Assembly: GCA_030522415.1 (NCBI GenBank)
Contig: CM060124.1
Coordinates: forward strand, 28,244,954-28,308,953
Length of the DNA stretch: 64,000 nucleotides
Direction of reading: 5' to 3'
Source of the DNA: Channallabes apus
Taxonomy: Eukaryota; Chordata; Actinopteri; Siluriformes; Clariidae
In this document: piece by piece, positions 56,901 through 59,900 of the stretch
Position numbering within the stretch: position 1 is the first letter of the stretch
Layout: each line of letters starts with the position of its first letter
The notes under the pieces: generated by a model
The model's database searches: none
Seen by the model: only the letters and a program-made list of their open reading frames with translations
What the model was told of the DNA's origin: nothing
Position numbers and translations under genes: made by a program

Positions 56901-59900
56901 ATACTGAACTCTGAGGGATTCTTTCAAAGGTCCACTTAGAGAATGAGAGAAAGCTCCAATCATGCTTATATTATTTATGATTTCTTATGCATTTTCAGGG
57001 TATGATGTACTTGGAGGAAAGAAGGATGGTCCATAGAAACTTGGCTGCTCGTAATATTTTGGTGAAATCCCCAAACCATATCAAGATCACAGACTTTGGG
57101 CTTGCTCAACTTCTGGATGCTGATGTAATGGAGTACTATAAGGAAGATGACAAGGTAAAATAGTCTACATTAAGTAGCACTGATATTTTTTAAACATTCC
57201 TTGAAATGAACATGGTCATCCTACATTATGTATTACCAATATAGAGTTGTGTGTTCTTCTTCTCATATTCATGTGCAGATGCTTATCAAGTGGATGGCTC
57301 TGGAGTGTATACACTACAGAAAGTTTACACACCAGAGTGATGTTTGGAGTTATGGTAAGGGAAATGCTCATTATAAGTACCCAGTACACTCGTTCAATAT
57401 TTGAGCATATTTAAAGTTTAGACAATAAAATTTCCCATTGTGATGTGACATAACTATGTGACGTACTTTATCTGCAAAATTAGGAGTGACCGCATGGGAG
57501 TTGATGACTTTCGGAGCAAAGCCATATGATGGTGTCCCCAATCGTGATATCCCGGATATTTTGGAGAAAGGAGAACGTCTGGCTCAACCTCCGATATGCA
57601 CCATAGACGTTTACATGGTCATGGTCAAATGTAAATCTTAAAGCTTCTACTTGGGACATGAAGTTTGTTATTTTACAATGTCTTCAAATCAAAGCTGCAT
57701 TATATCTAATTACAATTATGATTCTAATCACTATGCCATTAATAACCACTTCACAGTATATTGATAGAGATGAGTAATTATTATTGTAACGTTAGCTTTA
57801 GAGGGCAAATTAATTCAGAGTGGAAAGGAAATGCTTGCCAGGGATTAAATGATTCTATCAAGAATCAGGATAGTGGCATAGACATAATCAAGGAATTATG
57901 CCCAAAAATAAAATATGTAGTGCTAGCAGGATTTTCCATTTATTTGTGTTCCATTGATTCATTTCCTGCTGAAAGGGCTGCCTCATTTTGTGACTCAATA
58001 ACGATCCTTCGTCCTCGCTCAAGGTTGGATGATCGATGCTGACAGTCGGCCCAGGTTTAAAGAGCTCGCTTCAGAATTCTGTAGGATGGCGAGAGACCCT
58101 CAGAGATATCTAGTCATCCAGGTACGTAACAAAAAGATATTTTCTCCTTTTAATTTATAAATTTTATATTCTGAAGAGTACCAGAGTACTATTTTTTTTA
58201 TTTGTTTTAGGGGGATGATTGCATGAAGCTGCCCAGTCCCAACCACAGTAAATTCTTCAACAGTCTTTTTGATGAGGATGAACTTGAGGATGTTATGGAC
58301 GCTGAGGAGTACTTGGTTCCTCAAAACCTCAGTGCTCCTGTTTCCTCTCCTCCATCCAGTCCTCATCTGGACTCCAGTCAGGTGAAACTCATTACCCATG
58401 CCAGTACTATATCTCAGTTTTATCCAGTTTCATCCATATCTATAAAGATTTGTTTTCCTTGATTGGTTTATATTTAAATCAATAACTTATTAGAAGGCGT
58501 GCTGATATGCTGGTTATCAGCACGGCTATGAGGCAGTCATAGGCCTCGCTGTCATGCTGTTATTCAGCACAACAGCATGATGTCGAGTATGATATTACTT
58601 TTAACAGTTCCACAAACACCATTTATTATCAGCAGATAATGATTTGTTTCTTTATTTAACCAGTGATTGAACCAGTGATTTCGCTCCATCAACACCTATC
58701 CTTCTGTGACTGACAGAACTAACTAACCAAGACTTTGGAGCAGGTGACCGACAGTAGTGACAGATTAATGTAATTAACAGTTAATGTAAATAATTGGTAA
58801 AAGTAGGTTTAAATATTGAAGAGGTGGTGGACAGTCCTGTAAATTTTGTAAGTCTTTTTTTGTATGTCCAAATATTCTGCATTATAATATCATCTCTTCC
58901 AGGGTTAAATCCCACATAGCTTTAAATGGAAAACTAGTGCACTGTGGTGTAGAATCCCTTGTTTCACACACAAAGTAGTGCTCTTGATCAGGGGTTGGAG
59001 AGCGATTTGGGGTTCAGCCTTGTGTTAGAAACTGGTTAGCTTTGTAGAAGTAAAAGAGCACAGATGGTTCAGATTCTGAACAACTTGGAAAGAACCATCA
59101 TTTTTTTTATAAAGTTTTCTTGCTGAAAGTGCTTCTGTGACTGGTTTTAAGTGTTGGCTTTTATCATGTAGCTTCTCTCTCCTCAGTGCTGCAGACTGTG
59201 CAGACCTACCCATGCTGATGACTGAGAGTTACTGTAATTGATGTTGATGCAGAGTGATGCGTATGGTTAAACATGCCAGTGCTGTTACCATCTACTACAG
59301 CCATGCATGGATTGCCTTGTCCCATCCGATTGCTCAGTTGGAACTAACTGTTTTATAATTCATTTTGAATCACATACAGGGACTGAGTGATGCAAAAACA
59401 GGACCACAGAGTTGTGAGGCAGCCACGTCATCTGGTGAACTGTTTTTCCCTGTGAGGCCTGGCAAAGATGAGCAGCTCTGTCATGGAAAGCTGAAGAACA
59501 AGCACAGCACTGCCTTCGTGGAGGACAGCAGCTGTCGACATTACAGTGCAGACTCTGCTGCATTCCTGAAAGAAAGAACACAGAGAAAGCGAAGTGCTGG
59601 GGAGGATGGTTGTGTGGCTGCCAAGAACGACAAGAGTTCCTCAGGTAACTTCCAGGTTCTTTTGTATCTTCAAAACTGTTTCAGGCTGGTGAAAAAAAAA
59701 GCATGATCTTGAACAGTGCCTTGTGTTACGAAATATAGGTGGTGGATACATCAAAATTGTGGGCTTCTCCAATCGTATCAAGATCTTATTTATTTATTTT
59801 TAATTCCAGACCCTATTGAGGAGAACCCTTTCATCACACACCAGAGAAACAGGGAGATTCATGCACTGGATAACCCAGGTTACCATGGCAACTCTGATGG

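Follow-up and report, generated by a model that had tools for sequence, protein, structure and literature searches.

Catfish ErbB4 duplicates without the catalytic aspartate: a predicted pseudokinase receptor with a mosaic history

In the asymmetric dimer of ErbB receptors, the C-lobe of one partner switches on the kinase of the other, as set out in excerpts of PMC3014569 and PMC13259870, and the former describes HER3 (ErbB3) as retaining only the activator face of the C-lobe. The motif table of PMC13259870 gives HER3 an HRN catalytic motif, a retained DFG, a retained β3 Lys, a His in place of the αC Glu and a retained third glycine in the glycine loop. As for fishes, the excerpted text of PMC1618406 lists two ErbB4 copies each in fugu and tetraodon, reports only the short juxtamembrane form of teleost ErbB4, describes the C-helix and activation loop of teleost ErbB3 as little conserved, and names no ErbB4 pseudokinase; the excerpted text of PMC9702082 records an expansion of the ErbB family in the Pelteobagrus vachelli genome, with no remark there on catalytic residues. 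Titles and abstract openings, a coverage outside which subscription papers and preprints fall, yielded no report of a fish or catfish ErbB4 pseudokinase or of gene conversion in it. Here we describe an ErbB4 gene in 64,000 nucleotides of the Channallabes apus genome (assembly GCA_030522415.1, contig CM060124.1, positions 28,244,954 to 28,308,953 of the forward strand); this whole stretch is called the window, and all coordinates refer to it. The gene reads HRN where ErbB4 reads HRD. It belongs to a type of catfish ErbB4 that we call Y1, which has a sister type, Y2, and a normal copy, X, in the same fishes. Of the three types of ErbB4 found in catfishes, two are without the catalytic Asp.

The change lies in exon 21 (56999-57154, plus strand), which encodes the catalytic and activation loops, is flanked by GT-AG sites that keep the phase, translates without a stop and reads HRNLAARN, with AAC (Asn) at the codon of the catalytic Asp (57038-57040). 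Solved human ErbB4, ErbB2 and EGFR all have HRD at the aligned position (five alignments). The activation loop of human ErbB4, EGDEKEYNADGGKMPIKW, has an 18-residue counterpart in the window that has diverged from it. In exon 18 (51933-52058), where the kinase starts, the glycine loop reads GSGTFS, its third Gly being replaced by Ser (AGT, 52044-52046); exon 19 (52133-52231) retains the VAIK Lys (52181-52183) and exon 20 (52841-53026) the αC Glu (52841-52843); DFG is likewise intact, as is the HRDxxxxN Asn; and in exon 22 (57279-57354) the activation-segment Pro has become Leu (CTT, 57282-57284). This last change carries little weight alone because the Pro also varies in some proteins with HRD (Leu in P0166, Ala in five). 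Where a receptor tyrosine pseudokinase is recognized by replacement of essential catalytic residues, the Asp-to-Asn and third-Gly-to-Ser changes are such replacements, and where ErbB4 is defined as a tyrosine kinase with HRD, this gene departs from the definition by its HRN. We infer that Y1 is without kinase activity.

Several lines of evidence identify the gene as ErbB4. Compared with solved human structures, its ectodomain reaches 1083 bits for ErbB4 and 831, 635 and 559 bits for ErbB3, EGFR and ErbB2, respectively; its kinase is identical to human ErbB4 at 213 of 267 positions and to human ErbB3 at 169 of 267; and its exons align along human ErbB4 in tblastn. Pfam, run on the orthologue P0002 from Clarias gariepinus and not on the window protein, finds an L-furin-L-IV ectodomain, TM_ErbB and a tyrosine kinase domain. 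An ErbB3 identity was rejected on the ectodomain score and kinase identity, and the initial annotation was thus right to call the gene an ErbB4 paralogue, as it was on the HRN codon, on HRD as the normal state of ErbB4 and on the divergence of the activation loop. The check proposed with it, whether a tree would place the gene inside erbb3, yielded one result at odds with the scores and identities: in a kinase-only tree the single human ErbB3 comes to sit within the catfish Y group, on a long branch of 0.66-0.84. We read this placement as long-branch attraction, aided by the common HRN, because separating all ErbB4 proteins from ErbB3 costs 2.4 log units and is not rejected (approximately unbiased test, p-AU 0.31). 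The kinase tree alone is not decisive, and the ErbB4 assignment is kept because the ectodomain score supports it independently; the remaining trees (ectodomain, tail and segments) contain ErbB4 only.

The distribution of the change was followed in 245 proteins, namely those listed in three overlapping protein searches (the best 120 of 2423, 2752 and 4293 hits). This sample is biased towards relatives of the query proteins, and each row in it represents a 90% cluster with as many as 215 members. The catalytic site is D in 234 of them, N in 10 and S in 1, and the 11 exceptions are ten catfish relatives of the window gene and one protein from the characiform Hoplias. All five catfish Y1 rows are without the Asp (HRN in Clarias, Tachysurus, Silurus and the window, HRS in Bagarius, whose model also lacks the glycine loop), and HRN is found in 6/6 Y2 rows (Pangasianodon, Neoarius, Clarias, Tachysurus, Bagarius and Trichomycterus); together, 10/11 catfish Y rows including the window have HRN and 1/11 has HRS. 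Among the proteins listed, 7/7 catfish X rows have HRD. The gene had initially been taken for an ErbB4 duplicate in an ErbB3-like state; the loss of the Asp stands, but Y2 has lost it too, and Y1 and Y2 make up a pair that coexists with a normal X. In Y2, the αC Glu is lost in five of six rows (Met in four, Thr in one), as is the activation-segment Pro (deleted in four, Ser in one). An αC Asp in 27 of the 245 rows was read by eye as mostly isoform spacing (DEA versus DA) and was not scored as loss. Beyond catfishes, the Y2 protein of Hoplias malabaricus (P0029) combines HRN with an activation-segment Pro-to-Thr change and, from its sequence, apparently acquired HRN independently of catfishes; the Y2 protein of Electrophorus (P0023/P0131) keeps HRD while its DFG reads DFS, possibly a separate route to impaired catalysis. 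That the codon appears as Asn through sequencing error or RNA editing, which the initial annotation had already doubted in the case of sequencing, is ruled out for practical purposes, as Asn recurs in the Y1 rows of Clarias, Tachysurus and Silurus and in six Y2 rows, all from separate records.

Changes in constraint were measured in a set of 33 proteins, which also served for the site, AU, segment-tree and ErbB3-tree analyses; it holds all five Y1 rows, five of the six Y2 rows (the truncated P0122 was dropped), six of the seven catfish X rows (P0171 was dropped) and chosen others without isoforms, and in it the ectodomain is incomplete in P0002 and P0004 and the tail is short in P0010 and P0123. 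The kinases of eight catfish X pairs differ at 0-2 of about 294 sites, and those of six between-genus Y1 pairs at 40-53 of 251-295. Between Clarias and Tachysurus, X differs at 0/294 kinase, 24/636 ectodomain and 30/390 tail sites, and Y1 at 42/295, 45/579 and 100/389; between Clarias and Silurus, the figures are 0/294, 41/618 and 30/390 for X and 53/292, 70/579 and 112/376 for Y1. In these matched pairs the Y1 ectodomain evolves about twice as fast as that of X, whereas the kinase goes from almost nothing to 14-18%, and the shift in constraint is therefore centred on the kinase. A Y1 that is still an active kinase despite HRN, with compensation elsewhere, would accord with the retained VAIK Lys, αC Glu, DFG and Asn of HRDxxxxN in the window, but we consider it very improbable given that the third loop Gly, the catalytic Asp and the activation-segment Pro have all changed (with the reservation about Pro made above) and that the near-invariance of the X kinase is lost.

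The loss of constraint is uneven. The counts of Y1 differences from the catfish X consensus are 132/414 for the N-lobe, 24/210 for the segment between hinge and αE, 70/227 for the two loops, catalytic and activation, and 51/520 for the C-lobe; in control Y1 proteins with HRD from other fishes, the N-lobe and C-lobe counts are 18/352 and 9/416. All six C-lobe donor positions tested (numbered after EGFR) are unchanged in all five Y1 rows. They belong to the face of the C-lobe that includes the helix IDVYMVMVK, encoded from 57603 in exon 23 (57484-57630), and is extended by CWMI in exon 24 (58024-58121), where the kinase ends. In the ectodomain, the window protein retains 50/50 of the cysteines common to human and gar ErbB4. 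Open frames occur in several catfish genera, and the ectodomain and C-lobe are conserved; Y1 may have been kept by selection as a protein. The tail holds 6-7 tyrosines in catfish Y1, compared with 12-14 in four characiform and gymnotiform Y1 proteins, 13-15 among 12 X rows and 10-11 among five rows of catfish Y2, and the YxN motif is absent from the catfish Y1 tails and present at two sites in Y2 (five rows counted). This loss of docking tyrosines makes a decoy the main rival to an activating role, both of them possibilities raised in the initial annotation. As a decoy or dominant-negative receptor, Y1 would bind ligand and pair with other ErbBs but mainly dampen neuregulin signalling, which would fit the conserved ectodomain with its full set of cysteines, the absence of Asp from all Y1 rows and a tail with half the tyrosines and no YxN site. 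We regard this as plausible but rather unlikely: a pure decoy needs neither the conserved donor positions nor a C-lobe that has diverged about one-third as much as the N-lobe, and the kinase domain of Clarias, Tachysurus and Silurus has not been deleted, short gaps aside.

The Y copies have a mosaic history. An ectodomain tree of 53 proteins chosen from 149, with the window and human proteins added, groups catfish Y1 with catfish Y2 (11 rows; Shimodaira-Hasegawa-like approximate likelihood ratio test [SH-aLRT] 99), as does the 33-protein set (SH-aLRT 100); it also pairs the copies of gymnotiforms (95), cypriniforms (93) and Chanos (100) and leaves characiform copies unresolved. The tail tree of the 33 proteins instead unites the Y1 of catfishes with that of characiforms and gymnotiforms (97/98), and the Y2 of catfishes with the Y2 of those two orders (100/99); a tail tree of the larger set minus P0122 and P0031 agrees. 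In exons 18-21, catfish Y1 and Y2 still group together after removal of the Asp column (100/99). The AU test rejects a single group of all Y1 in the ectodomain (p-AU 4e-8), in exons 18-21 (0.0055) and in exons 22-24 (0.0057); it rejects a single group of catfish Y1 and Y2 in the tail (2e-5) and does not do so in exons 22-24 (0.50). At the level of individual sites, exons 2-16 have 27 residues common to the two catfish copies only, with 11 such residues in exon 12 (39899-40098), and exons 18-21 have 10, with no paralogue-type site in either region, whereas the transmembrane exon 17 (44971-45103) has four paralogue-type sites and exon 27 (59810-60561), which carries the tail to the stop, has seven, with no catfish-shared site in either; exon 26 (59380-59644), also tail, has one catfish-shared site.

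The simplest account of this mosaic, as the sequences suggest, is gene conversion between linked copies that spanned the HRN exon, and a mosaic phylogeny among segments, the pattern expected of conversion, is what we find at the protein level, with groups chosen post hoc. In Electrophorus, Triplophysa and Chanos, the contigs listed for the two copies are equal in length, which suggests that a single chromosome carries both. The tails of cypriniforms and Chanos do not split into Y1 and Y2, and their pairs may therefore have another origin. The initial annotation had posited an independent gain of the ErbB3-like HRN; a gain within ErbB4 still seems right, but it was apparently common to Y1 and Y2 by way of the conversion-like mosaic. 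Several points weigh against conversion. The groups used in the clade tests were picked after the trees had been seen, exons 22-24 hold no site of either kind, and the adjacency of Y1 and Y2 in catfishes is putative. Within exons 18-21, just 3 sites distinguish Y1 from Y2 outside catfishes and could thus show a paralogue pattern, so the case for conversion there rests on the 10 shared derived residues, and this likeness could include parallel change under relaxed constraint. These same 3 sites, together with the repeated loss of catalytic residues from Y copies seen as HRN in Hoplias and DFS in Electrophorus, would agree with another origin, compatible with the other readings of Y1, in which Y1 and Y2 lost the Asp independently in early catfishes, with no conversion, once X covered the kinase role. 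We think this unlikely, because the AU result for exons 18-21 speaks against it, because identical derived residues exceed a rough count expected under independence (10 versus 2.8 in exons 18-21, 27 versus 5.3 in the ectodomain) and because independence takes three losses of the Asp, as on the tail tree, versus two, one in catfishes and one in Hoplias, on the tree of exons 18-21.

We posit, tentatively and a little short of an even call, that Y1 binds ligand, has no catalysis of its own and activates the other ErbBs with which it pairs, and that conversion spread the loss of its Asp; the kept ectodomain and C-lobe and the eroded N-lobe and catalytic elements, a combination like that of HER3, underlie this reading. 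On the catfish stem, the catalytic Asp would have been lost in one Y copy, and conversion between the two copies, covering the ectodomain and kinase exons 18-21, would have placed the loss in both. Y1 would bind a neuregulin-type ligand and pair with a catalytically active ErbB. In the asymmetric dimer of the two kinases it would, like ErbB3, be the donor (activator), using its conserved C-lobe for this, and it could not itself serve as the kinase. Since Y1, unlike Y2, would bring few tail tyrosines, signalling would run via the tail of the partner, and output per ligand would probably be lowered or redirected. In a fuller scenario, which we hold to be possible without calling it probable, an ancestral catfish conversion between linked ErbB4 copies passed on a kinase-killing codon, both copies became pseudokinase neuregulin receptors and their roles split: Y2 would be a dead kinase with docking tyrosines, in effect a second ErbB3; Y1, equally dead as a kinase but short of most of these tyrosines, would act only as activator or as decoy; and X alone would have kept ErbB4 catalysis.

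Other observations tell against the proposed role. The β3 Lys, αC Glu and DFG are all retained, making ATP binding possible, and HRN need not kill activity, as HER3 was about 1000-fold below HER1 in one assay (excerpt of PMC3014569). The C-lobe is slower in the HRD-bearing Y1 of other fishes too, to a lesser degree, and this may simply reflect folding; Y2 has changed two donor positions (Met to Ile in 4/5 rows, Val to Ile in 1/5); and the receiver-side positions of Y1 have changed conservatively only. Finally, the window yields no exon 1 and P0002 begins inside exon 2, so that surface expression in Clarias is only putative.

The gene model comprises 26 plus-strand exons between 23771 and 60561 that join into 4043 coding bases, 1347 residues and a stop, with no internal stop. 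Exons were located by tblastn with human ErbB4, and GT-AG sites were then chosen to keep the phase; they are numbered 2-27, and the residue count begins at exon 2, the signal peptide not being included. The ectodomain starts in exon 2 (23771-23922) and continues through exons 3 (25818-26004), 4 (34149-34283), 5 (34553-34618), 6 (34974-35092), 7 (35648-35789), 8 (35991-36104, found as a human ErbB4 match), 9 (37403-37529, with a weak pyrimidine tract at the acceptor), 10 (38012-38085), 11 (39677-39767), 13 (41424-41556), 14 (43208-43301) and 15 (43843-43997); exon 16 (44849-44893, also a human ErbB4 match) encodes the short juxtamembrane form, and the tail starts in exon 25 (58211-58381). The gar and six catfish X rows also have this short form, and the absence of long juxtamembrane and PPxY exons was dropped as a special feature; no PPxY (CYT-1) was found on the plus strand of intron 25. 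The best match to the window protein in the protein search is P0002 (94% over residues 680-1347), from which its tail differs at 28 of 391 residues.

An intact frame of 1347 residues with intact splice sites had been claimed at the outset, and its codons and GT-AG sites are indeed there, but exon 1 is not part of it. This exon, which would encode the signal peptide, did not turn up when positions 1-23775 were searched with N-termini from five relatives (best E value 0.016, with an internal stop in the match; a sixth query, P0002, itself begins inside exon 2) or with that of human ErbB4 (best E value 0.90). Y1 could thus be a decaying duplicate heading to a pseudogene, at least in Clarias, with its signal-peptide exon perhaps lost: neither the 23.7 kb that precede exon 2 nor the C. 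gariepinus model, which starts without a signal peptide, yields an exon 1, the kinase and tail evolve fast, and Bagarius has moved on to HRS in a model without the glycine loop. We judge decay distinctly unlikely, however. The absence of exon 1 from the window is weak evidence because ErbB4 genes can have a very long first intron; the window has 1347 open codons and GT-AG sites; the Y1 models of Tachysurus and Silurus are full-length, with N-termini that are longer than that of P0002 and signal-like; and the ectodomain is only about twice as divergent as that of X, with the C-lobe well conserved.

In intron 17, 46734-50822 (minus strand) holds two adjoining long open frames, one of 1019 amino acids with endonuclease and reverse transcriptase domains and one of 342 amino acids with a GDSL-type esterase domain, a pair that by its sequence is like a recent non-LTR retrotransposon. 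A Tc-type transposase fragment lies at 7727-8143 (plus strand) and a reverse transcriptase fragment at 19629-20114 (minus strand); a 224-codon frame, stop to stop, at 29171-29845 (plus strand) looks by eye like the end of a retrotransposon protein and has no Pfam match.

Judging from these sequences, the ErbB family seems to have reached the dead-kinase state of ErbB3 a further time, in catfish ErbB4. Catfishes and, separately, Hoplias offer repeats of one residue change, in catfishes with an HRD sister, X, in the same animals, and the order of steps, through catalysis, activation loop, N-lobe and docking tail, is therefore readable and testable. If gene conversion did move the lesion, one copy disarmed its neighbour. 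A catfish protein that bears the name receptor tyrosine-protein kinase erbB-4 may not be a kinase.

HER3 has a docking tail and Y1 few tail tyrosines, and the ectodomain and overall kinase identity of Y1 are those of ErbB4. Like HER3, Y1 has HRN, keeps DFG and the β3 Lys, retains the C-lobe activator positions (as judged with an ErbB3 sequence) and has a predicted ligand-binding ErbB ectodomain; unlike HER3, as given in the motif table cited above, it keeps the αC Glu, which is His in HER3, and has lost the third loop Gly, which HER3 keeps. With conventional ErbB4, the catfish X copy, Y1 shares the order of Pfam domains (P0156 versus P0002), and the window gene shares with six X rows the short juxtamembrane form and all 50 ectodomain cysteines; X differs in its HRD, nearly invariant kinase and tyrosine-rich tail (13-15). 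Catfish Y2 resembles Y1 in HRN and in shared derived residues of the ectodomain and N-lobe, and departs from it in the αC Glu (lost in 5/6), the activation segment (deletion in 4/6, Pro to Ser in 1/6) and a tail with 10-11 tyrosines and two YxN sites in five rows, so that the output of Y2 looks more ErbB3-like than that of Y1. An ErbB pseudokinase is a known kind of receptor; the likely route by which Y1 came to be a predicted one is unusual.

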